Below are positions 4,401 to 57,420 of a stretch of 64,000 bases of DNA, in pieces. The notes below the pieces were generated by a model that ran no database searches, was not told the DNA's origin, and was given only the letters and a program-made list of their open reading frames with translations. The DNA is from Haliclystus octoradiatus (lineage: Eukaryota; Cnidaria; Staurozoa; Stauromedusae; Haliclystidae): the NCBI GenBank assembly GCA_916610825.1, contig OU744451.1, positions 11,906,864 to 11,970,863 of the forward strand, given 5' to 3'. Positions within the stretch are counted from its first letter, which is position 1; each line of letters opens with the position of its first letter. A program made the translations under genes and the position numbers.

Positions 4401-7400
4401 AAAACATTGTACAAAAGTGTATATATAATTTATAATTGAATGTAAATATGTGAACAGTTTGGTTTACGAGAGGGCAGGTTTTGATTTTCAGATTCTATTT
4501 CCATAATTAACGAAAGAGTTTTTAAACGTTATTATAATCCAGATTTCATTATGTTGTTCAGCAATAAGAACAATACGCAGTATTTTGCTACAGTTTAGAA
4601 ATATAAAATAGTGTGTCTTGTTCTAATTATTCCTCAGTAACATTTAATGAAGTTTAATAAAATGATATATAATTCAACAAATTTTAAATTGAATTGAAAG
4701 TAAAGCGTATGATTTGTGATCAATAATAATTACAATATTTGTAGCGTTCAAAAATAGCTTTCAACTTTAAAAACACAAAAACATAACTACAGTCAAACTC
4801 GTCATAGCGACCACTCCTATTAAGCGGGCACTCTTTGTAAGGGACCACGCTTCGGGCCGCCGTCGAATAAAACAATCGAAAAGTGTTGTTTTAAGCGACC
4901 GCCCAAACATTGCTTTCAGAATTGTTTACATTTTTGTCGTTTCTACGAATAATTAACATCGTTGTTTATCCGTTTGACGCCACTGTGTAAATACCGCAAC
5001 ACATTTCTATTCAGCATAACTTGTTTTGTCTGCTCAAGTGTTTGATCGATTATTAAAAGGGTTAATAATTTGTAATTCATTGCAGTTCTGTAAACTTGTT
5101 CTCCTGCTCAGCATTCCTGTTTACATATGCTAAATCCTGATCAATATGAATCGTAAATGTTTAACACTCGAAGAACATGGGAAGGGAACAGCGAAGGGAA
5201 ACATCGCTAGATCAATAGCAGATTTCATGAAATGTGGAAAGACACAAATTCAAAACATCTTGAAGAAAAAAGACGTCATTCAGAAAGATTTGGAAAACAA
5301 CAAGCCGCTTAGCTTGAAGAGAAAGCGTGCTATTACAGGCAATGAAGAAATCAACGATATTTGCCACAAATGGTTTACGGACGCCATTCGCCGACGTTTG
5401 CCAGTGTCTGGGCCTATGTTGCAACAGAAAGCACTCTCTATCGCTGAGGAGACCGGTCGGCATGAGTTCAAAGCTAGCAATGGCTGGTTAAGATCATTTC
5501 TGAATGGTAGCAATATTGTATTTAAAAAAATGTCAGGAGAACGTGGCGATGTAGACATAAAAACTGTTGATGAATGGAAGGCCCGTCTTCCCGTCTTACT
5601 TGAAGGTTATTCAGCCAATGACATTTTTAACATGGATGAACCTGGTTTACAGTTTAAAGATACCAGCACTAACACATTTATAACTAAAGGAGAAGATTGT
5701 GCTGGTGGAAAAAAAATGTAAAGCTAGAGTTACGGTAGCTCTATGCTGTAGTTTAACGGGAGAGAAGTTGAAGCCACTGTTAACTGGCAAATCTAAAAAG
5801 CAGCGTTGTTTTAAAAACGTAAAAATTGATCAATTGCCTGTGACATACGCAAATAATAAAAAATCCTGGATGAACGGAGATCTCTTCCGAAGTTGGCTAA
5901 ATACTGTTAACAATTAGATGAAATCCAAAAAGAGAAAGATATTGCTTGTTTTGGATAATGCGCCATGTCACGGACACATTTTTACAAAGAAATTGTCAAA
6001 TGTTAAAGTTGCCGCTACCTCAGAATACAACATGTTACACTCAGCCACTTGATCAAGGGATTATCCAAGCAATGAAACTGAAGTTTAGGAAGCTGCAGCT
6101 GAGCCATGTAATCAGGAAAATGGACACAAACAATGAATTGCCAGCTTCAAAAATATTAGGTTCGATTGATATGTTGAATGTTGTTACATGGGTTGCAGAA
6201 TCGTGGAACCAAGTTAATGAATCAACCATCCGTAAGTGTTTCATTAAATCTGGCTTTCCAGGAGAAACTGTTGAGTTATCCGATTCAAATCAACAGGAGA
6301 CAACTGATAATACCTACCAAAGCCTTGCTCAATGTTTATTTGGATGTACCTTCGACGAACTGGTTGAGATTGATAGCAGCCTTGCAACAAACGACGATGC
6401 AGAAATTGATTTGGATTTACCGGTTAGTGACGTTATACTCGCAACAAATGAAAACTATGAAGACTCAAGCGATGATGATGAAGCAGAAGATGTACAACAT
6501 GTCCCTTCAATCGACCAAGCATTACAAGGTTTAGACATTTAAAACAATATTTAATAGCTACAGGTGACAATGATTTAATCAACTCAGTATTAAAACTTGA
6601 ACTCGCGATGGACAAATATAATAATTATTTTTAAAAAACCAACAAGGGAAAATAACTGACTATTTTAATTAATATCGATATAATTAATAATGCAACTTGT
6701 TGATGTTTTGATAATTCAATATCTACACAGTACTGTATTTTTATTGTCATTAATTGTAAAATGTTGTTTTTTGATAGCTCAATATATTGTTCTTTTTGAT
6801 TTTTAATAATTTGCGTGGTTCTAGCGTTGTGTGAATTTTCTATTGTTTCCGGCTCTTGTTCTATTTTTCTACTGTTCTTATTCAGCGACCACTCCTTGTA
6901 AGCGACCATATTCGGGAGGTCCCTTGAGTGGTCGCTTACGAGGAGTTTGACTGTAATTCAATAGTTAATGCAATTTGGATATGAGTGTAACAAACCTTGT
7001 GTTACAAAAATAGAAAGTGAAAAAGGTTGCATATATTAATCGATCATAGCGAACAATATTTATTAAAATATAGCTTACCATTTTCTAAATAAGATCCAAA
7101 TAATAATTACGAGTGGTATAATCTCCAACAACATCTATATACATTCAACTATATTGCAACCATACTTCATCGAAGGAGAATATAAACCGGATAAGAATAA
7201 AATGTAAATTGTCTTTTATTCGAAATCATTCAGACGAAGATAGATTTCATGTCGCGATCAAATGCATGGTAAAGTAGATTCATTTTCTATATAAGTAAAT
7301 CCTTTCCATCATACATCAAAACATGAGCATTTAAATATTACCATCGGCTATGGTATTTATATATCTTTGAAGTTGCACTAAACAAATCTACTCTATAAAT

Positions 7401-19400: not shown

Positions 19401-22400
19401 GATGAAAGAGACTCAGATGCTCTTCAACCTGAGGTAGATAATTATCACAATGAGCAAAGTTTATCAAAAACTCTAGTGGTTGTAGATATAAACAATATTG
19501 CCTGGATTTGAGCTTTATTCACGAAACAACAAACTCAAAAATGCTATTATTTTATGGAAGAAATATTGATAGATGCTGTGATCAAATTGCGCTCATCAGA
19601 AATGAGAGCGTAGCGCCAATAATCGAGCCATTGCGTATTTGCGCCTTTGTGGGCGCGTCAAAATCACACAAATCACGCAAAAATACTAACACTTTGATGC
19701 AAAATATACTATTTATAATAAATAAGCATTATCAATCATCCCAACCCAGCCACAACCAATTCTGTTAACTTGACATGAAAGAAACATAGAAATGGTGCAA
19801 GATTTTAGTTAGCTTCTAAGAAATTCCCCTCCAAGCTTGTCAAATATCGTCAATTTTTAAACTCATCAACAAGGGTTTGTATGGCCAAGTAAAATATCAC
19901 GTGTTGAATCGCGAGCAAAATATCAAGATGATGTTGAGTATAGTGAAAGGAAGTCATCAACCAAGTTAGTTCCTTGTAGGGAAACCTATGATTGGCCGGT
20001 TTTTATATATTTTTAGATATAAATGTGAGTAAAATTCCCCTCCGAGGCATTTTCCTACAGTGAACTGGCATTATCCTTCGTGCTCGCCATTGTTATAGCC
20101 ATGTCATCACAGCATTTCAAACATCTCCGCGATGCAAGAAATGATATTCACACTCAGTGTTTGTTTGTTGTTGTTTTTGAGATTACTGTTTCCATGTTCA
20201 ATATCATATTTATACATATTTATATAAAATATCAAATTTACAGAATTTATACTTTTCAGTATAGAGACTTAATATGAAATATTTTAATAAAAAGCCGTTT
20301 TGATATTTTACATAAAATCTACCCGTCCATGCTTTTGTAAATAGTTTAAATTAAATTCTGTATAGCATGCTATGGACTATGTTTATGTCAAATAATAAAT
20401 CATTTGAATAATTTATAACTGTATATCAAAGCTTTCAAGCTGACATATCAAACTGAGAACGAAAAATAAGCTGAGTAATTGCCTATTTCTTCGACAATTG
20501 ACACACCACACTGAATTACACTTTTAAAGTAAACAGTCAATAACATGTAATCACTCAGAATAAACCCAACACGAGTGTATAATTATGTTAAAGGATGATT
20601 TCTTTTGAATTGCGATAATTTTCTAACTCTTTCAAATAATCTATAGCATGCATATAAATTTAAACAAATATTTCCTCCTTCTTGTTAATAACAACAACAG
20701 ATGGCGCCATTTTGTATTACCAACATGTGAGAGATTTAGAGCAACAGCATGTGTTATTTTTCAAGACATGCGCAATGTAAAGTGGCCCCATTATAGGCAC
20801 TACGGAAGTCCCTTGACATTCATTTAAGTTTTAATTGTCACTCTTAAAGCACTCATTTCTCACTTTCCAAAGGCACATATCCTCAAACATATCATTAATT
20901 CATAAAAAAAACTTTAAATGCTTTTGCCTATACAGCAGTTGTAGTCACAGTCGTAAATCCTGGGGGAGTAGAGGTGTGCTATCCCCAATATATATTTTTA
21001 GCAAAAATTTCAAAAATTGTGCAATTTTGTATGTACCGTATCAGAAACACTGAAGCTGTAAGGTACTGTTGGAGTAATTATTACCTTTATTTTGATGCTA
21101 TGTGATGGAGATTTCAATGTCTTTATTTTGAATGGCATCTCAACAGCAACTTGTAATGAAAATGGTCTACAAGATATATAAACAAAATAATTCTCAATTT
21201 GATATCCAACATAATTATATGATATATTGCTTATCTCATCACACTTTCAATTGGAGAATGACCAAGGCCAAGATCAGTAATCTGAATGACCAAGGCCAAG
21301 ATCAGTAATCTGAATGACCAAGGCCAAGATCAGTAATCTGAATGATGACAAAAAATGTACCTGCTTGATCAATGACATGTGATAGCTCACCTGTTCAAGT
21401 TGCGGATGCTGACTTCTTTGACATCAGACTAAAGTGAACAAAGCATCAAGTATTTATATCATCAATATAAATTTTAAAGATTATCATACTACTGATACTA
21501 AACAGATGGAGAGAGAACTTTATGAACAATCCATAGACCTCATGCTCAATATTTCAGAAGTTCCCGTACATAAAAACTATTCTCAATAAAGTCACAAGAA
21601 TGATACATTTAAATTAAATTGAGTCAACCTTTTTTTGTTTACTTAAAATCACACCTTTGTGAAATAATTCCTATTTCATGAAAGTGACTTGTCAATCATA
21701 TTTATTTATTATTAGTTATTTATTGGCATTGTGCCCAGATGACTTCATTTCAGGTAATATCTGATAAGCAAATGGACAACACTGTATGAGAAAAGTCGGC
21801 ATCCCGGGATCTCCGATATCTGAGCTAAATTGATCAGAAGTTTGTAGTTTTTGTAAAACGAATTTAGTAGGATTTCTATATACTTTCTGACATTCTGATT
21901 ACAAAAAGATTCTGATGATGTAAATTGGATATTACACAGTCTATAGGGTTATCAATTTCAAGACTTTGGAATTTGGAATCAACAATGCTAGGGTAACTCT
22001 GTATGTAAGTGTGTTACAAGGGTGGTTTATGAGTAAAAGTCAAAGAGTTTATGTCACTGTTTCTTTGACCCTGTGGGTAAACATAGAATTGCATGTTATC
22101 TTTAATATCGATATTATTTCGTTGGTTCAGAACTAGTATTTTATCATCTACAATACAGTACCTGTGTTTCTTTAGATAGTGCTGTATCTTGTTGCCATGG
22201 TGCTAATGATCCTGGCATTGTAAAACTAATTTCCCCATCTTCAACATTCAATTCAACAACATAAGTTATCTTGATAAGGACCTTTGATTTTGGGGGTAAA
22301 TTGCCAACACTGACTGTAAATACATCCTGTAAATAAATTAATGAACACATTCACAAACAACAGCATACTTATTCAACAACACAGAAATAGCATAGATGAA

Positions 22401-34400: not shown

Positions 34401-37400
34401 TTTGTTAAAAGACAGCAAACAGACCAAATTTGCTGTACAGATCCTGCAAGGCTTAAAGGTAGCGATGAGTCAAAAATGTGATATTCTTTCAAGCGGCAAA
34501 TTGCTCGTTCAGCATGAACACGTAAGTTAGCAATCTTTTCGTTTTCAATTACTTCCTCTGCCGTAAATTGATTTTTTTTTCTAAAAAGTTTGGTATGTCT
34601 ATGGTAAATTCTCTAGCCCGAGGAGCATATCAGCAATTTTGAACCCTATGTCAACCATTACCCCGTCACCAGGCTCAAGTAAATCCAGAATTCCTGATAT
34701 TCTTGTTATATTAATATCTGAAATGCTTCCAGAACATAAGTTGCTAACAAAAGTAACCATTCCAGAAGGGGCAATACCAACTAGCCCTTTAAATGTAGTA
34801 GTTCCCTTGTAATGAGAGAAAAGTTGCGAATTCAGCACCAGACTTGAAGGCAATTGCACTTTAAGCTTTGTACAATCTAAAATTACCCTTGCTGTTGGTG
34901 ACATTGCGAGGAATGATTCAGGCATGTATTCTTTGACCTGCAATCTAGAAGGCCAAAGCTGCTGAGACCCAAGTACACAATACAAGAAATTAGCCCACGT
35001 TATGGTGTTTCGACTTACAGTTGAATGATGTACATTGAGCTTATCTGCTAGCTCCTGGTTTAGTGACCCGAGTCTTACTTTATGGAGAAACATAAAAAGC
35101 TGGTCAATGTGCAGCAACTTCATATTACACGTTGATCCATTGACATACTTCGTAGAGTATCGTACCTTTTCTTTTTTGACCACGTAATCATATTTGAAAT
35201 ATGCCGAAGCATAGCAGTATAAAATTACAAAAATAAGTCATAGCTAGTGAAGCCTGTATCAAATCTCATTAACTCTGGGCAATTTGATAATCTAGTTAAA
35301 CCAAAACGTTCAATGTTCAGCTTCCTGATCTCTTCCTCCAGACTTAGAGTTCTATTTTCAGCTGCCTCCAGCATTTGTTCAAGAATTTGTGTTGGTGCAT
35401 CCTCTTCCATTGGTAAATCATCAATGTCTAATGAACTACAAAAATAAACATCAACATGTAAGTAGGTTATTAACAGATCAGTTCAAACACATTCAAACAA
35501 ATTTAAAATTGTAAGCCACAAATACTTCGATCAATGACAGAGATATTTGATAATGAAATAGCAATAATCAGAAAAAGGTCTTAGGTCTAAGGTTAAATAA
35601 ACAAACGTCTTGCAACTTCTAGTTGAAAACTTTTGCTGATAAATACTAAAATATTATTTGAAGCATTTACCTCGATAACTGTTGCTGTTCGGACATCGAT
35701 CTATCAGTCGGTGGTCTTATTGGGACTCTTATTTCTGACCATAAAACTGTGAAGGGCACACTCCATGTTTCAATTTTTAATTCCATTTTGCGTCCATTTG
35801 TAATCAGTTTGCAAAAAATGTTCAGAGCAAACATGGACATTTTTCGTGACCTTCGAGGAAATATATATAAAATATAGAATTCAGGCTATTCTATCTTTCA
35901 AACATGTCTGTGAAAGCGAATTTATATCTCAATACCCTAGTTCTCTGAATACAAACAGTATCGGTCGGATTTGAGCAGTCAGTTGTGAGTTCTTACCTTG
36001 AAATTGGGGCCTTCATCTCTCCTGATTGCCTGAATCCAAGCCTTTTTGGTGTCTTCATTTCCAAGGAATCTATGATAGGAAATATCAGTGCGACTTGATG
36101 CCGTTTCCATGTCTTTATCACACCAATTGTTGGAACATTTCGGAACACAACAGTGCGCCATCGCAGTAAAATTTGAAAGAGAATTATTTTGCTTCTTCCA
36201 GTGACTACCTCTCTTTCACGCAGCCTCCGCAAAGCGTGCAAAGCGCCTATAGCTACATAGAAAAACTTTATTTTATGTGCTGAAAGGAAGCCAGAACACA
36301 TTAATTATTACAAATTAGAAATACTCAGTCAAATTTCGAAATCTGAAATTATCCATAAAAAATCACTTCAAATCCGATCCGATCCTAAGACCTAAGATAT
36401 CAACCCGAATCTGACCCGATACAATGGGATCGCATTCGGTTCAGATTCCCAAATCTTTATTGCAATATATATGTATATATGTATGTCTCAATTACGCATG
36501 CGCAATTTTGAGCACTATCGACTCGGGATGTGTCTATACTATTTGCATTATGCATTGCCCACTACTTCGGTAGTTTGAGCACTCTGGTATGGCACAGATG
36601 TTTCTTTCATGTGATGAATTTTTTCACCACATTTATAACTCATCTTGACATAGGTGTATACTGAAGTCAGTTACTTGTTTGCTCACTGAGCAGTACTGAT
36701 GAAGGCTAATGGCCAGAAACATGTACTTGTCTGCTGCTATATATGTCTCAATTGCGCATGCGCAATTTTGAGCACTATCAACTCGGGATGTGTCTATATT
36801 ATTTGCATTATGCATTGCCCACTACTTCGGTAGTTTGAGCACTCTGGTATGGCACAGATGTTTTTTTCATGTGATGAATTTTTTCATCACATTTCTAACT
36901 CATCTTGACTTAGGTGTATACTGAAGTCAGTTCCTTGTTCGCTCACTGAGCAGTACTGGTGAAGGCTAATGGCCAGAAACATGTACTTGTCTGCTGCTAT
37001 GTATGTCTCAATTGCGCATGCGCAATTTTGAGCACTATCGACTCTACTATTTGCATTATGCATTGCCCATTACTTCGGTAGTTTGAGCACTCTCGTATGG
37101 CACAGATGCTTTTTCATGTGATGAATTTTTTCACCACATTTCTAACTCATCTTGACTTAGGTGTATACTGAAGTCAGTTCCTTGTTCGCTCACTGAGCAG
37201 TACTGATGAAGGCTATGTCTGCTGCTATGTATGTCTCAATTGCGCATGCGCAATTTTGAGCACTATCGACTCTACTATTTGCATTATGCATTGCCCATTA
37301 CTTCGGCAGTTTGAGCACTCTCGTATGGCACAGATGCTTTTTCATGTGATGAATTTTTTCACCACATTTATAACTCATCTTGACTTAGGTGTATACTGAA

Positions 37401-40400
37401 GTCAGTTCCTTGTTTGCTCACTGAGCAGTACTGATGAAGGCCAATGGCCAGAAACATTTACTTGTCTGCTGCTATGTATATCTCAATTGCACATGCGCAA
37501 TTTTGAGCACTATCGACTCGGGATGTGTCTATACTATTTGCATTATGCATTGCCCACTACTTCGGTAGTTTGAGCACTCTGGTATGGCACAGATGCTTTT
37601 TCATGTGATGAATTTTTTCACCACATTTATAACTCATCTTGACTTAGGTGTATACTGAAGTCAGTTCCGTTTTCGCTCACTGAGCAGTACTGATGAAGGC
37701 TAATGGCCAGAAACATGTACTTGTCTGCTGCTATGTATGTCTCAATTGCGCATGCGCAATTTTGAGCACTATCGACTCGGGATGTGTCTATATTATTTGC
37801 ATTATGCATTGCCCACTACTTCGGTAGTTTGAGCACTCTGGTATGGCACAGATGTTTTTTTCATGTGATGAATTTTTTCACCACATTTCTAACTCATTTT
37901 GACTTAGGTGTATATTGAAGTCAGTTCCTTGTTCGCTCACTGAGCAGTACTGGTGAAGGCTAATGGCCAGAAACATGTACTTGTCTGCTGCTATGTATGT
38001 CTCAATTGCGCATGCGCAATTTTGAGCACTATCGACTCTACTATTTGCATTATGCATTGCCCATTACTTCGGCAGTTTGAGCACTCTCGTATGGCACAGA
38101 TGCTTTTTCATGTGATGAATTTTTTCACCACATTTATAACTCATTTTGACTTAGGTGTATACTGAAGTCAGTTCCGTGTTCGCTCACTGAGCAGTACTGA
38201 TGAAGGCTAATGGCCAGAAACATGTACTTGTCTGCTGCTATGTATGTCTCAATTGCGCATGCGCAATTTTGAGCACTATCGACTCTACTATTTGCATTAT
38301 GCATTGCCCATTACTTCGGTAGTTTGAGCACTCTGGTATGGCACAGATGTTTTTTTCATGTGATGAATTTTTTCATCACATTTCTAACTCATCTTGACTT
38401 AGGTGTATACTGAAGTCAGTTCCTTGTTCGCTCACTGAGCAGTACTGGTGAAGGCTAATGGCCAGAAACATGTACTTGTCTGCTGCTATGTATGTCTCAA
38501 TTGCGCATGCGCAATTTTGAGCACTATCGACTCTACTATTTGCATTATGCATTGCCCATTACTTCGGTAGTTTGAGCACTCTGGTATGGCACAGATGTTT
38601 TTTTCATGTGATGAACTTTTTCACCACATTTATAACTCATCTTGACTTAGGTGTATACTGAAGTCAGTTCCTTGTTCGCTCACTGAGCAGTACTGATGAA
38701 GGCTAATGGCCAGAAACATGTACTTGTCTGCTGCTATGTATGTCTCAATTGCGCATGCGCAATTTTGAGCAATATCGACTCGGGATGTGTCTATACTATT
38801 TGCATTATGCATTGCCCACTACTTCGGTAGCTTGAGCACTCTGGTATGGCACAGATGTTTTTTCATGTGATGAAGTTTTTCAACACATTTATAACTCATC
38901 TTGACTTAGGTGTATACTGAAGTCAGTTCCTTGTTCGCTCACTGAGCAGTACTGATGAAGGCTAATGGCCAGAAACATGTACTTGTCTGCTGCTATGTAT
39001 GTCTCAATTGCGCATGCGCAATTTTGAGCACTATCGACTCGGGATGTGTCTATACTATTTGCATTATGCATTGCCCACTACTTCGGTAGTTTGAGCACTC
39101 TGGTATGGCATATATGTTTTTTTCATGTGATGAATTTTTTCACCACATTTATAACTCATCTTGACTTAGGTGTATATTGAAGTCAGTTCCTTGTTTGCTC
39201 ACTGAGCAGTACTGATGAAGGCTAATGGCCAGAAACATGTACTTGTCTGCTGCTATGTATGTCTCAATTGCGCATGCGCAATTTTGAGCACTATCGACTC
39301 GGGATGTGTCTATACTATTTGCATTATGCATTGCCCACTACTTCGGTAGTTTGAGCACCCTGGTATGGCACAGATGTTTTTTCATGTGATGAATTTTTTC
39401 ACCACATTTATAACTCATCTTGACTTAGGTGTATACTGAAGTCAGTTCCTTGTTCGCTCACTGAGCAGTACTGATGAAGGCTAATGGCCAGAAACAGGTA
39501 CTTGTCTGCTGCTATTATATATATATATATAATCTGAAAATATTATGATATGATAGTATATGAGCCTATATATTTTTGATCTTAGCAATCTCAGCAAGTA
39601 AGCCTGTGATTTTCATGGCAGTCTATCAACATACTAAAAGAGTTAGTTGAAAATAGAATGTGAAAAATGAGCCTCAAGGTGCTTCTTGTTGTCAAATTTT
39701 CCAGAATAAGAGCATCAACATTCTATTAAAATGAAATAAAATTCTATAATAAATCACTATAGTAATTAGACATTGATATTGCGTTACATCTTATTGTCAA
39801 TATTTCTAGGCGCTATTTATAAACCTTACAGATGCCGAATGAAAGAAAAGACGATTATGAATAAATTAGTTGTTTTGATAGAAAAACGAAAACAACTCAT
39901 TTTGCCAGATTCGTATTACATACGAATATGCATATATTATATTATATTATTTTATATGTATTTATATCATATGGATATTTATTCAGAATTTCTTGAAAAG
40001 AAGACAATGATTTATAGAGTGGAAATGTTCAGTGCAGCTTTATTGATATATAAATATCATAGCCGATGGTAATATTTAAATGCTCATGTTATGATGTATG
40101 ATGGAAAGGATTTACTTATATAGAAAATGAATCTACTTTACCATGCATTTGATTGCAATATTAAATGATTTCTCTTTGTCAGAATTATTTCGGATAAAAG
40201 ACAATATATATTTTACAAGCCTTTGGCTTGCTGCCTGCGCACGGGGCAAGTCAGCCTTCGGCTTCCTCAAAGAGGTCGCTTCGCTACCGTTAGTAGCTTG
40301 CAGTAAATCTTGTCAAAGAGAATGTCAATGAAACAAAATAGTCATGAGAAAGAATTAAAAATGCAGAACAGCACTGATAATTAATTTCAGTTTTGATAAT

Positions 40401-49939: not shown

Positions 49940-52575
49940 CACCAAATCCTGATCGGTCTGACATCTGTCTCCTTGGCAATTTTAATATAGATTATCTAAA
50001 TACTACATCGAGTTCTTACCGAAAAATGGAACATTTTGCTATGGCATTTGGCCTCTCTCAACTTATAAAGTGTGCTACCAGAATTACAGAATCTTCTCGT
50101 ACATCAATTGATTTGATTTATGTAAATAATATAAACAATCTGACGTAATTCATATGGGATTAGTGATCATTCACTTGTATTCTACGTAATAAAATCTGGC
50201 ATTCCAAAATCTACACCTAAAACAATAGAATATCGGTCATTTAAGAAATACAACAAAGATATGTTCATAGAAGATGTAAGTAACATCCAATGGAATCGTA
50301 TTGATGGCGCTAATAATGTTGATGACGCAGTATCACTATGGAACGAACTGTTTTCCACTGTTGCAGATATCCACGCACCTATTAAACGCAAGCGAATTAA
50401 AGGAAATCCGTGTCCTTGGATGACCTTGGAATTATCGAATCTTATTGAGACCCGTAACTACCACCATAGAAAAGCTGTTCATTCGAATTCCAGTTATCAT
50501 TGGCAAACTTTTAAGAAACTTAAAAATCTAGTAAACAATAAGGTCAAATCATCAAAGTCTGCTTATTTCACAAATTTGATTGAAAATTCAAAAGGTAATT
50601 CTGTTGATATGTGGAAATCATTGAAAAATATTTTCCCACAAAAATCGACTGGTAATGGTTCTGGACCCACCAGCTTACTTCAAGATGGTATTCTTTTATC
50701 AAAACCACAAGATATCGCTAATTGCTTGAGCAATTTCTTTACAACAATTGGTCAGAAGCTTGCTGTTAAATTTAAATCCAATGAATTACCAGTTGCAATT
50801 AATTTAAATTCTCCGTTGCCGGCATTTTCAATAGAATATGTCGAAGAAAGCTATATTCGAAAGCAATTGAACAAACTTAAAACCCACAAAGCAGTTGGTC
50901 TCGATAAAATCAGTACAAGGTTATTGAAAGATTCATCGATTATTATTGCTCCTATTATTACAAAATTAATTAATTTATCTATTTCTGAAGCAGAGTTCCC
51001 TTCTTTATGGAAATGTGCCAAAGTCGTTGCGCTGTTCAAATCTGGAAACAAATTGGATTCTACAAATTATAGACCGATATCAGTACTGCCAGCAATTAGT
51101 AAAATTCTTGAAAGAGCTGTCCACGATCAATTGTACAATTTCCTAAAATCGAATAATCTAATTACTCCCAAACAATTTGGCTTTAGACCAAATTTATCAA
51201 CTACAATAGCGTTATCCAAATTTACAGACAATGTGTTAAATAACATGGAAAATGGTAAAGTTACAGGTGCAATTTTTGTAGACTTGGCTAAAGCATTTGA
51301 TACAGTCGATCATACTATTCTACATCGTAAGCTTCAAGGACTTGGACTATCAAATCATTGTCTCCAATGGTTCAAATCGTATTTGACTCATCTCTCTCAA
51401 GTTACAAAAGTTGGTCAGTGCTCATCATCTACATCACCTATTACAGTTGGTGTTCCACAAGGTTCAATATTAGGACCATTATTATTCTTAATATACATCA
51501 ATGACATTCCTAACTGTCTCAAACACACTGATATTACATTGTTTGCAGATGATACTGTCATATTTTGTCAAGACAGTACATCTGATGGATTAAAACAAAA
51601 ATTAAACAATGACTTATCCCAAATCTTGCAATGGTTTAGGAATAATAAATTGACAGTAAATACTACTAAATCCAAGTTAATGATTATGGGTAGCCCTCGT
51701 AAACTTTCATCATACTCTAACATTGAATTGACAATCTACGGCAAAATAATTGACAATGTTGATCATTTCAAATATTTAGGGGTAATGTTAAATAATAATC
51801 TAACTTGGAAAGATCATATACGGAACATCAAATCAAAAGTCTGTCATAAAATTGCAATATTAAGGCGGATTAATCAATATTTACCATATTTTGCAAGGAT
51901 TATTTTTTATAATACAATGATAAAGCCTCATTTTGATTATGCTAGTATCGTGTGGGGAGATAAAGGCAACGCTGTACTTATGGATTCCCTACAAACATTA
52001 CAAAATAAAGCTGCGAAAGTCATACTACAAAAAGATAAATTTTCATCTCCCTCAGACGCTCTGAAAGAACTGAAATGGTCCACGTTATGTGTGAAACGCA
52101 GTTATGATAGACGTTTATTAGCTTATAAATGCATAAATAAATTAATTGACACTGATTTTAACTTTACTGACGGTGCAGCGGTACATACCCATAATACTAG
52201 GTATAGAAAGGATTTAAGAAAACCATCATCAAAATCCAAATGGGGTACATATTTGACACATTTTACGTTCGCTGAAGAATGGAACAGCATAGAAAAAAAC
52301 ATTAGACAATTATCGTCATTTACCATTTTTAAAAATACCCTAAAACGTTCAATGTTCTTATAAACTAATTCAATTAAAATGTTAGTAGAAGATTTTATGT
52401 TCTTATCTTATAGTTAAATATTTATTTCATGTTGTTCTCTATATTTTTAATTTATTATGTTACTTAATTTTACTTATTTTCATTGTTAATTCTATTTCGA
52501 GGAACCTCCTGAAAATCATCGAAGATGAGTGAGGCTTTTCCTCTTTAAATATTAAATATATATATATATAAAGTC
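49940..52575 (+). mobile_element. CR1/Jockey-like LINE with intact RT ORF
   Basis: A second endonuclease end (ICLLGNFNIDYLNTT, RITESSRTSIDLIYVNN, about 49965-50150) runs with one break into the 700-codon RT ORF. The 3' end has CGAGGAACCTCC and GTGAGGCTTTTCC, then an AT-rich tail ending in (TA)n at 52557-52572. Confidence 0.85.
50261..52363 (+). CDS. LINE reverse transcriptase ORF, 700 codons
   Basis: An uninterrupted frame with the endonuclease-RT linker (PCPWMTLELSNLIETRNYHH). RT follows: [66 protein letters not shown] and catalytic LFADDTVIF. The thumb has VDHFKYLGVMLNNNLTWKDH; the C-terminal region ends at TLKRSMFL. All RT catalytic residues are present. The endonuclease upstream is broken, so the copy is not autonomous as it stands. 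Confidence 0.95.
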   Translation: MFIEDVSNIQWNRIDGANNVDDAVSLWNELFSTVADIHAPIKRKRIKGNPCPWMTLELSNLIETRNYHHRKAVHSNSSYHWQTFKKLKNLVNNKVKSSKSAYFTNLIENSKGNSVDMWKSLKNIFPQKSTGNGSGPTSLLQDGILLSKPQDIANCLSNFFTTIGQKLAVKFKSNELPVAINLNSPLPAFSIEYVEESYIRKQLNKLKTHKAVGLDKISTRLLKDSSIIIAPIITKLINLSISEAEFPSLWKCAKVVALFKSGNKLDSTNYRPISVLPAISKILERAVHDQLYNFLKSNNLITPKQFGFRPNLSTTIALSKFTDNVLNNMENGKVTGAIFVDLAKAFDTVDHTILHRKLQGLGLSNHCLQWFKSYLTHLSQVTKVGQCSSSTSPITVGVPQGSILGPLLFLIYINDIPNCLKHTDITLFADDTVIFCQDSTSDGLKQKLNNDLSQILQWFRNNKLTVNTTKSKLMIMGSPRKLSSYSNIELTIYGKIIDNVDHFKYLGVMLNNNLTWKDHIRNIKSKVCHKIAILRRINQYLPYFARIIFYNTMIKPHFDYASIVWGDKGNAVLMDSLQTLQNKAAKVILQKDKFSSPSDALKELKWSTLCVKRSYDRRLLAYKCINKLIDTDFNFTDGAAVHTHNTRYRKDLRKPSSKSKWGTYLTHFTFAEEWNSIEKNIRQLSSFTIFKNTLKRSMFL

Positions 52576-55399: not shown

Positions 55400-56725
55400 T
55401 TGTTAGTAATTAAATTTACAACATTCACAACAAAAGATACTTTATTTTATGCTGATCAAAGAACACTGACAGCTACGAAAAGATGAGATGATGAAAACAT
55501 TCTTCATTGGAAAAAGCATTTATGTGTTATACGATATAGAACACGATATAATGCTCAAGCCATAGGAAACCAGTGTTATATGCATAAAGCGAATAATAAT
55601 AAATCTGTCCTATTGTGATGCCGGCACATGAAAGCCATTCTGAAACACTTCAGTGATCACGAAGAGTTATCTGTTGATGCTTCTTGCTACTGTCTTACAT
55701 GGGGTTTATAGATATTACTACAAAGAGCTGGAAAAGGTTCTGTGTCAACGGTGTTAACATGCATGGTAATTTTAATCAGCTATGAAAAAAGAGCTATTAG
55801 CTTATTCGGTTTGTGACTAAATGATAAATGCAAAAAATACAATAATAATAATCAAAACGTTTCTGATAATCCTTCCAATTTCCAAGATTGTCTAGCCCTT
55901 GTTATATGATATGAAACTGAGTCTCGCATAATCTAATACCTTTTTGAAGACTATAGTAATAGAAAATGGCGGTATACATTTACAACAATATTAATATGAA
56001 GTAATATATCTACAGAGAACAATATAGCGGTCAGCCATCCGCAATCACTGCGGATTCTCCACATAAAATATGGGCAATAGTAATGCCAGATCAAGTTTGA
56101 AAAATTATATTGTTCTCTGGGTATGTATACCTGGACAGTTAGTATACTTTCTGTGGAGTACCCTTATTTGCAAAGAAATTTGATATTATACTACCTAAAA
56201 TGTATATTGCTCAGACGCTAATCTGATTATCATGGCATTCATTTGTTCTGATCAGTTGAATATTCTCAAAATGCTGTATGATCAATAATCACGGTCCCAA
56301 TTAAGAAAGTTACCTCGCTGAACCCCCATATATAAATAATTCAATGCTCTCATCATGTCTTTGGGTAAGATAATCAAAGAAGCTGTATCTCAATTTCAGT
56401 GCATGATACCTCGGCGTATTTAATTCTTCAGCAATTGGAAGTGATGATAGATTGATAGCTACTTCTTTTTCTAGTTAAAAGAATGATATCTATTCATAAG
56501 AAAGGAGAAAGGAAACGCTAATGCTGAGTTTTTCGGGTGTTGTTGGCCCAGAAGCAATTGTTGATGTGGTTCGAGATTCCCATGTTAATGTTGAGCAAGA
56601 CGACTCTGCGTATCTGAAGTTATTTTTAAATCTGAAATAAGTAAACTTTGGTCCATTTTTAAAACATTACATTACCCCTATTCTCTTTTAAATGATATTT
56701 TAAATTAGTTTGATTTTAACCAACC
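55400..56725. other. Unassigned AT-rich region with a short palindromic element
   Basis: No coding match. At 56014-56121 the ends CAGAGAACAATATA and its inverse enclose 108 bp with an internal hairpin ATCCGCA / TGCGGAT. No target duplication is visible. Confidence 0.45.
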
Positions 56726-56729
56726 ACAG

Positions 56730-57420
56730 GTAAGTAATGTAAATATAAATAGTGTAAATAGTTTAGATATAAATGTAAATAATTCAAAAGCCGATTCATA
56801 TATTAGTTTACCTTTTGAAGACCAAAAGGCAAGTGATTTTATTAATTTAGAGATGCACCGTTTAAGTGATAAAGTTGATTTTAAATTTCAACCTGTTTTT
56901 AAAAGCTTGCGGCATTCACAGATGAATTTCGACATCATAAAGAAAAACCTGAGCTCCTTACTAAGCATTGCGTCGTTTACCATTATAAGTGTGATCTGTG
57001 TGAAGCAGATTATGTCGGCTTTAGCTTGCCGACACTTACACGAACGTGCAATGGAGCACAAATTTAAGTCAAGCTCAATTGGACAGCATTATTCTGAAGT
57101 ACACAACATCAATGCTATATTCGAACTTTTGATAAAAAACTTCAACATCTTCATGTTATTCATTAGAAATATCTCGTCGTCCCTGAACACTCAGAAAGAT
57201 TCAGTTAAATCAACATTATTCTAGAAATTTTAGAATAAAAAATTGGCAAATTTTATTTGTTGATATCCATTCCATTATTGTAGAATTTTGTAATCAATGC
57301 ATCAGTAATTTTTATGTAGTATATATATACCTCTATATTTTCAATAAATTTAAGACTTGAGAATGGGGCCTAATGACCCCGAAACGTTTTTAAATAAAAA
57401 TAAGAACATCTATGCTATGA
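56730..57420 (+). mobile_element. Penelope-like element, 3' end
   Basis: The C-terminal GIY-YIG endonuclease is followed by about 200 bp of 3' UTR. That includes GGGGCCTAATGACCCCGAAA (57366-57385), a stem-loop plus GAAA that recalls the hammerhead sequences of Penelope-like elements. The RT part is missing. Confidence 0.75.
56775..57224 (+). pseudogene. Penelope-like GIY-YIG endonuclease
   Basis: SYISLPFEDQKASDFINLEM and LSDKVDFKFQPVFKS are followed, after a shift, by KPELLTKHCVVYHYKCDLCE with ADYVGF (the zinc finger and YVG part). After a second shift come CRHLHERAMEHK, SSIGQHYSEVHN and the end SSLNTQKDSVKSTLF. This is the EN domain layout of Penelope elements; at least two frameshifts are present. 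Confidence 0.85.

Follow-up and report, generated by a model that had tools for sequence, protein, structure and literature searches.

What is the tandem array at positions 36478–39515 of a 64,000-nucleotide stretch of DNA (the window) from the staurozoan cnidarian Haliclystus octoradiatus (assembly GCA_916610825.1, contig OU744451.1, positions 11,906,864 to 11,970,863 of the forward strand), and by what route did it arrive there? The original prediction, made from the letters of the window, had called it a retrozyme-like tandem satellite in which every unit ends in a type I hammerhead ribozyme. We consider it highly probable that a young animal retrozyme of the kind that lacks long terminal repeats (a non-LTR retrozyme), spread by ribozyme-cut RNA that is copied into TA-rich microsatellites, inserted here and gave rise to the array. 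The term retrozyme-like is borne out by features read directly from the DNA, namely the hammerhead motif, the dispersal of the arrays, their fixed 3′ end, their scattered 5′ ends, over-represented at the predicted cut, the AT-rich targets, one target-site duplication (TSD) of 12 bp and the usually low divergence within arrays. Retrozymes of this kind are already known, cnidarians included; the added value lies in the anatomy of the junctions. The mitochondrial contig of the assembly also points to a host that is most likely a medusozoan cnidarian. Its cox1 contains 9 TGA codons read as Trp and has AGA where Arg is conserved, in line with the code of cnidarians and sponges; cox2 and two frames taken by eye for atp8 and atp6 are on the other strand, a medusozoan arrangement.

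The window was scanned with Tandem Repeats Finder (TRF), and the units were delimited by cutting at TGCTGCTA. A single plus-strand array was found (36478–39515, period 260, 12.0 copies, 93% matches), of which an overlapping second TRF row (37273–39515) is a part. Its units measure, in array order, 261, 260, 228, 247, 259, 260, 247, 248, 248, 259, 260 and 259 bp, in agreement with the 12 units of about 250 bp announced by the original prediction. The array begins with TATGTATG at unit position 259, which assigns it to the priming-site class described below, ends in ...TGCTGCTA, and is embedded in a (TA)n-like stretch. The letters and the junction alignments place a (TA)/(TGTA)-rich target at 36467–36477 on the 5′ side and a (TA)n target at 39515–39532 on the 3′ side. 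The GC content of the consensus unit is 41%, on the expected side of the 50% below which retrozymes fall. Complete plus-strand hammerhead motifs are present in unit 1 (36688–36739, from the descriptor given below and the letters) and, from the descriptor and unit comparison, in units 4 (37423–37474), 5 (37682–37733), 7 (38189–38240), 9 (38685–38736), 10 (38944–38995), 11 (39204–39255) and 12 (39463–39514, with the loop III variant CAGGTAC and TGCTGCTA as its last 8 nt). The same evidence places motifs with the substitution A6G (CTGGTGA) in units 2 (36948–36999), 6 (37942–37993) and 8 (38437–38488), and unit comparison shows that unit 3 retains a remnant (37195–37227) from which the centre of the hammerhead is deleted. 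The predicted cut of unit 1 falls between C36731 and T36732, and one of the 7 bp of stem I (AGCAGTA/TGCTGCT) is a U-G wobble. The eight complete, three A6-mutated and one deleted copies are those that had been predicted; the A-A opposition at the base of stem II, which had been noted for most copies, is present, and its frequency had been set too low, as all 11 full-length motifs have it.

The motif was evaluated with a type I hammerhead descriptor composed after the motif was known: CTGANGA, a stem II of 4 bp with at most one mismatch, GAA, A15.1-U16.1 with a 3-bp stem III, H17, and a stem I of 6 bp with at most one mismatch. Over the whole window the descriptor gave 8 plus-strand matches, all within the array, and 0 matches on the minus strand; with A6G permitted, the plus-strand matches rose to 11 (11 of the 12 units). 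Dinucleotide-shuffled flanks produced 1 match in 4.9 Mb (40 shuffles, both strands). The motif is far above chance, being present in 8 of 12 units and in 0 of 20000 shuffles of the last unit.

The unit is not confined to the window. In a search of the 261.9-Mb assembly (33 contigs, here labelled C1 and so on, with the window on C7), the 40 candidates that were scored out of 1090 gave at least 126 unit matches at about 40 loci; these form short arrays dispersed over the nine contigs C1, C2, C4–C8, C10 and C11. The 3′-end pattern of the arrays followed by 10 A/T bases has 484 genome matches (at most 2 mismatches) against 0 for the reversed-pattern control; the exact 17-nt 3′ end occurs 587 times, and a pattern with stem II and loop III left free 552 times. 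The 100 arrays that were measured span 0.07–11.7 units, and 95 of them hold at most 4 units (for locus L133 only the 5′ part was fetched, and its length is a lower bound). Thus, the tandem arrangement stands, and satellite is the weaker word for what looks more like a set of retro-insertions.

The 3′ ends of the arrays are strikingly uniform. Among 43 array rows from the similarity search, 40 end at unit position 258–260; the remaining three are L009p, truncated by the edge of its locus, L036, which ends at position 77, and the upstream one of the two L022 rows, which ends at position 34. After L009p (measured as L125) and the short L044p were dropped and the two L022 rows merged, 40 arrays were kept, of which all except L036 share the 3′ end ...CTGCTA (258–260, last 8 nt TGCTGCTA), 8 nt past the predicted cleavage site. 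The 12 bases of 3′ flank are exclusively A/T in 31 of the 40 arrays, compared to about 1% expected at 67% AT, and (TA)n, (TTA)n or (TAA)n commonly forms the flank, in most cases at either end of the array. At L035 an exact 12-bp TSD, ATAACAGCTATA, flanks the insert, in keeping with the TSDs of more than 4 bp that retrozymes have when they have any; it was noticed in the flanks, with no systematic TSD search. TSDs are unreadable at most sites, because the sites lie in microsatellites. Animal non-LTR retrozymes lack LTRs, a primer-binding site and a polypurine tract, and no LTR-like flanks were noticed in the junctions inspected. The motifs GTAGTCTTTGACTC and ATTATCTAATAGC were seen by eye to recur in the flanks of several array loci. 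One old copy, L092 (C4:19358900–19359400), ends exactly at GTC, the predicted cut, and adjoins non-AT DNA; it is possibly the insertion of a cut linear monomer, or possibly a product of chance. We treated it as chance and set insertion at the cut itself aside, since AT-flanked 3′ ends at the cut show no excess genome-wide (1 match, control 1).

The repeat could also be a short interspersed element (SINE) copied by a long interspersed element (LINE) through a common 3′ tail, with the microsatellite tail added by slippage of the reverse transcriptase. The window contains a LINE (50144–52571, also delimited as 50144–52363) with an open frame of 739 aa (RVT_1) and a (TA)n 3′ tail, whose 3′ end has 19 near-full-length genome matches of at least 98%, itself included. 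In 6 of 12 fetched LINE loci, those with the 3′ end visible in the right orientation, the element closes with a short (TA)n beyond which the target DNA is unrelated, and 5′ truncation and a TSD resemble the marks of a LINE. Most of our arrays, in contrast, have microsatellite on both sides, also as (TTA)n or (TAA)n, and by eye they share no 3′ tail with the window LINE beyond TA. SINEs are rarely tandem. The consensus unit has no B box and one loose A-box match, and ARAGORN reported 0 tRNA genes at window positions 36000–40000. The identification as a SINE was consequently rejected, and the six LINE loci do not support the window LINE as a partner. We regard copying as a SINE as unlikely.

The 5′ ends behave differently from the 3′ ends. 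The 5′ start of 100 arrays was set by local alignment to the tandem consensus; 40 of these arrays were the similarity-selected ones, and 60 were drawn from the first 100 of the AT-flanked 3′-end matches. The starts scatter over the unit, with two peaks. Eight of the 100 lie at positions 252–253, flanking the predicted cut (binomial P 1.2e-6 under a uniform null), six of them exactly at 253 (P 2.8e-6) and two at 252; by sample, they comprise 3 of the 40 similarity-selected and 5 of the 60 added arrays. Nine starts, the window array included, lie at 258–1, a TA-like priming site (binomial P 1.4e-4). Outside both peaks the densest two-base window holds 4 starts, and the remaining 83 fit a uniform spread (Kolmogorov–Smirnov P 0.12). 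Genome-wide, AT-flanked starts number 20 at the cut, 21 at the priming site and 7 at a matched control position, an approximately threefold excess at the cut over that one control; some of the 21 priming-site starts look like duplicated loci. Arrays that start at the cut usually comprise whole laps plus about 8 nt (268, 268, 269, 524, 530, 789 and 1054 nt, and one of 830). The cut peak and (TA)n have no more than one base in common, and microhomology is therefore no explanation for this peak. A reverse transcriptase running off a 5′ end made by the ribozyme would produce it, and we take it as indirect evidence that the RNA is cut at this position.

These junctions support target-primed reverse transcription of a ribozyme-processed, probably circular RNA into AT microsatellites. 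In such a scheme, for which we infer transcription, actual cleavage, circles, dimer action and the identity of the enzyme, tandem genomic units would be transcribed, and the type I hammerhead, probably dimerized by way of its near-palindromic stem III (ACAUGUACUUGU), would cleave the RNA at GUC/UGCUGCUA. The monomers would be ligated to circles. The endonuclease and reverse transcriptase of another retroelement would then nick a TA-rich microsatellite, and the nicked strand would pair with the RNA sequence UAUGUAU directly beyond the cleavage site; by inspection, a (TA)n strand exposed by a nick could base-pair with UAUGUAU at the cost of one G-T wobble. Such pairing would make first-strand cDNA begin at one fixed place (...CTGCTA). 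Synthesis may go round the template a non-integer number of laps and end randomly, by run-off at a ribozyme-cut 5′ end, or at the TA-rich priming site, possibly by pairing with it. A 3′ end 8 nt beyond the cut requires a template that was joined across the cut when copying started, that is, a circle or an uncut multimer.

The divergence of units within and between arrays bears on the choice between these two templates. Of the 21 rows that contain two or more full units, 19 have a divergence within the array that is lower than the between-array mean (the row for L022 mixes two neighboring arrays); the exceptions are L036, where the two are equal, and the window array. A retrozyme whose reverse transcriptase uses a linear multimeric transcript, partly cut by the ribozyme, with multi-unit arrays that copy existing genomic arrays, would account for several of the observations. 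Arrays that start at the cut and stop 8 nt after the following one require a template cut once and intact at the next site; the window array is heterogeneous, with units that look reshuffled; and TA microhomology alone could produce the priming-site starts. The microhomology, at TATGTATG, could likewise account for the arrays of integer unit number, which weakens them as proof of a circle. Repeated copying of one unit is the better fit for L033 (8 full units, 0.1% within the array and 1.4% to other arrays) and for L015, L016, L025 and L042 (0% within), against 1–2% to others. Circles thus draw support from the homogeneous arrays. Room for multimers is left by the heterogeneity of the window array and by the microhomology that could explain the integer class; we hold multimers to be a serious candidate that falls somewhat short of an even chance. 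Returning to copying from a circle, we are evenly divided on the full proposition that the family is a genome-scale record of retrozyme retrotransposition, with probably circular RNA, a nick in a TA-rich microsatellite, a start 8 nt past the ligated junction, a non-integer number of laps, and an end that is random, set by ribozyme run-off or located at the priming site. If it holds, the 5′ ends of arrays would report on ribozyme cleavage in vivo, and any genome could be scored for them. The junctions show a single point of priming, which targets are preferred and how polymerization proceeded, and they carry the probable footprint of the ribozyme cut. They can be counted because there are several hundred insertions, many of them little diverged, and such counts make the questions of circle or multimer and of the helper enzyme testable.

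Movement at the level of DNA needs to be considered as well. An ordinary tandem satellite, shaped by unequal exchange and transposed as DNA, for example within palindromic miniature inverted-repeat transposable elements (MITEs), would reduce the hammerhead motif to coincidence or relic. At both loci checked the retrozyme copy indeed sits in (TA)n amid a palindrome: L044 (283–340/442–499) has arms of 58 nt that are 91% complementary, and L040 (669–721/1449–1501) has arms of 53 nt that are 98% complementary, as if the copies had inserted in a palindromic MITE with a TA-rich center. Within the window array, units 2, 6 and 8 are mutually close, as are units 3, 4 and 7, so that the units look locally reshuffled; the lack of an Rfam match, given below, also favors the satellite. 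The fixed 3′ end, the scatter of 5′ truncations, the TSD and the excess of 5′ ends at a cut predicted a priori are not expected from exchange or DNA transposition, and we judge the satellite explanation very improbable.

A number of results weigh against the array being a retrozyme insertion with an active hammerhead. The covariance search that had been proposed along with the original prediction did not recover the motif: at the gathering threshold no Rfam family matched anywhere in the window; at E ≤ 10 the 3.2-kb array gave no hammerhead; and on the 111 bases around the end of unit 11 the one match was to Hammerhead_3, the wrong type (12.4 bits and E 3.9, against a gathering threshold of 48.5). 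Rfam having failed to recognize it, the claim of a hammerhead rests on the descriptor, the comparison of the family and the junctions. The 10.1/11.1 position is unpaired, as A-A in young copies (including the 11 full-length window motifs) and as C-A in old ones. The 72-nt hammerhead segment has a minimum-energy fold of −16.1 kcal/mol compared to −11.2 kcal/mol for the hammerhead fold, tertiary contacts not being modeled, and folding of the young circle yields no more structure than its shuffled versions have (z −0.6). The 60 added arrays are all AT-flanked by selection, and the 7 control matches together with the priming-site peak (9/100) mean that the 5′ ends are not perfectly uniform. The all-pair means of divergence are close (1.5% within arrays, from 137 pairs of which many come from the window array, and 1.9% between). 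The window array itself is heterogeneous, 3.2% within and 2.7% between, and consequently bears no signature of a single circle. Lastly, the hammerhead has no clear extra conservation between subfamilies, as described next.

The older subfamily was sampled with the non-ribozyme portion of the unit as query; among 20 fetched of 69 matches, 16 copies have less than 92% identity to the young unit. Their hammerhead consensus reads CTGACGA-CGGC-TAATG-GCCA-GAAACAAGTACTTGTC. It differs from the young consensus at 3 of 52 positions (N7, 10.1 and 15.4), none in the invariant core, the residues of which are retained in both consensuses; outside the hammerhead, the two units differ at 15 of 204 positions and by a further 7 gap columns. 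Among the old copies the hammerhead is slightly more diverged than the remainder (87/816 vs 249/3294). The first old copies seen (L065–L076), which were selected by the motif, had suggested that the hammerhead is the best-conserved part; in the 16 chosen by the remainder of the unit, the hammerhead is not the best-conserved part. The fold of the old circular consensus is strongly structured (z −4.7). Its stem III, 12 nt long, is fully palindromic (duplex −15.2 kcal/mol), and the young stem III departs from it by two U-U mismatches (duplex −7.6 kcal/mol). By analogy, the A-A at the base of stem II and the near-palindromic stem III suggest dimer-dependent cleavage.

Dimer-dependent cleavage is described for the hammerheads of amphibians and of Penelope-like elements (PLEs). 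In PMC7229834, the newt and axolotl retrozymes have dimeric hammerheads; HHR_Amex1 has a weak stem III with a palindromic loop, and HHR_Amex2 has a U-U mismatch at the base of stem II and slow cleavage as a monomer. Like those amphibian ribozymes, the hammerhead here combines a weak, (near-)palindromic stem III with a mismatch at the base of stem II. The differences are a stem III of 3 bp (young) or of 4 bp with a GUAC loop (old), A-A or C-A in place of U-U, and a unit of 260 bp in place of 330–350 bp.

Which enzymes might provide the nick and the copying? The literature proposes Penelope-like elements, and such elements are present in this genome, with 16 GIY-YIG matches. One locus, L064:1–4327 (C2:28183500–28187826), has an open 792-aa frame with RVT_1 and GIY-YIG, partial copies in tandem and inverted arrangement, and a hammerhead-like motif, CTGAAGA...GCGAAACG, on either side of the frame (at 1646 and 4254). 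These features favor specific mobilization by PLEs. The 3′ limits at 14 PLE loci, in contrast, lie outside (TA)n, (TTA)n and (TAA)n, these being rough BLAST limits of which some fall within coding sequence. PLEs were accordingly set aside as the obvious helper, and we entertain their specific role as a possibility toward which we do not lean. In the window itself, a PLE relic at 56709–57224 aligns to the GIY-YIG locus L055 (70% over 164 columns), and Pfam found no domain in the frame of this relic. It is followed, at about 57300–57400, by a hammerhead-like stretch ending in CCCCGAAACG.

The retrozyme described here has much in common with published systems. Cnidarian non-LTR retrozymes, reported in corals, anemones and jellyfish, consist, in the account of Cervera & de la Pena 2020 (PMC7229834), of tandem units of about 220–350 bp and low GC content with one type I hammerhead each. 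According to the same account, animal retrozymes have TSDs of more than 4 bp when these are present, PLEs occur in the same genomes, and the return to the genome is a hypothesis, in which a properly primed circular RNA uses a borrowed reverse transcriptase. Hammerheads of coral and mussel retrozymes are shown in it to cleave in vitro. The 260-bp tandem unit and arrays of up to 11.7 units resemble animal non-LTR retrozymes, whose repeats of 150–450 bp run from monomers or dimers to tens of units and whose transcripts occur as linear and circular RNA of unit length. Unlike in that account, as far as its passages go, the junctions are resolved here, with 3′ ends that fall 8 nt downstream of the cut, targets in AT microsatellites and a 5′ peak at the cut. 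The main text of PMC7229834 has no occurrence of truncat, insertion site or microsatellite, its supplements lying outside this statement, and junction anatomy is absent from the passages of PMC7229834 and PMC7761336 consulted; with a limited literature search, we make no claim that it is unpublished. PLE hammerheads are located, in the passages of PMC7761336, in terminal repeats of protein-coding elements. They share the type I core with the retrozyme, and PLEs are its suspected helpers; the PLE motif of this genome reads CTGAAGA...GCGAAACG, and its PLE ends were seen outside AT microsatellites, unlike those of the retrozyme. Plant retrozymes, as described in these two sources, have type III hammerheads, LTRs and 4-bp TSDs; they too have a non-coding unit that bears a ribozyme, which in our case is a type I hammerhead.

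Four plus-strand copies of the hammerhead variant GGTTAATGGCC lie 43–53 kb apart on C2 (3692736, 3745632, 3792964 and 3836194), and their spacing suggests a large tandem duplication. Elsewhere in the window, a piece of a DDE_Tnp_4 transposase lies about 1.2 kb upstream of the array (34599–35237), pieces of a Tc5/pogo-type transposase (HTH_Tnp_Tc5, DDE_1) are found at 5134–6542, and a 28-bp unit is repeated 3.2 times with no mismatch at 21256–21345.

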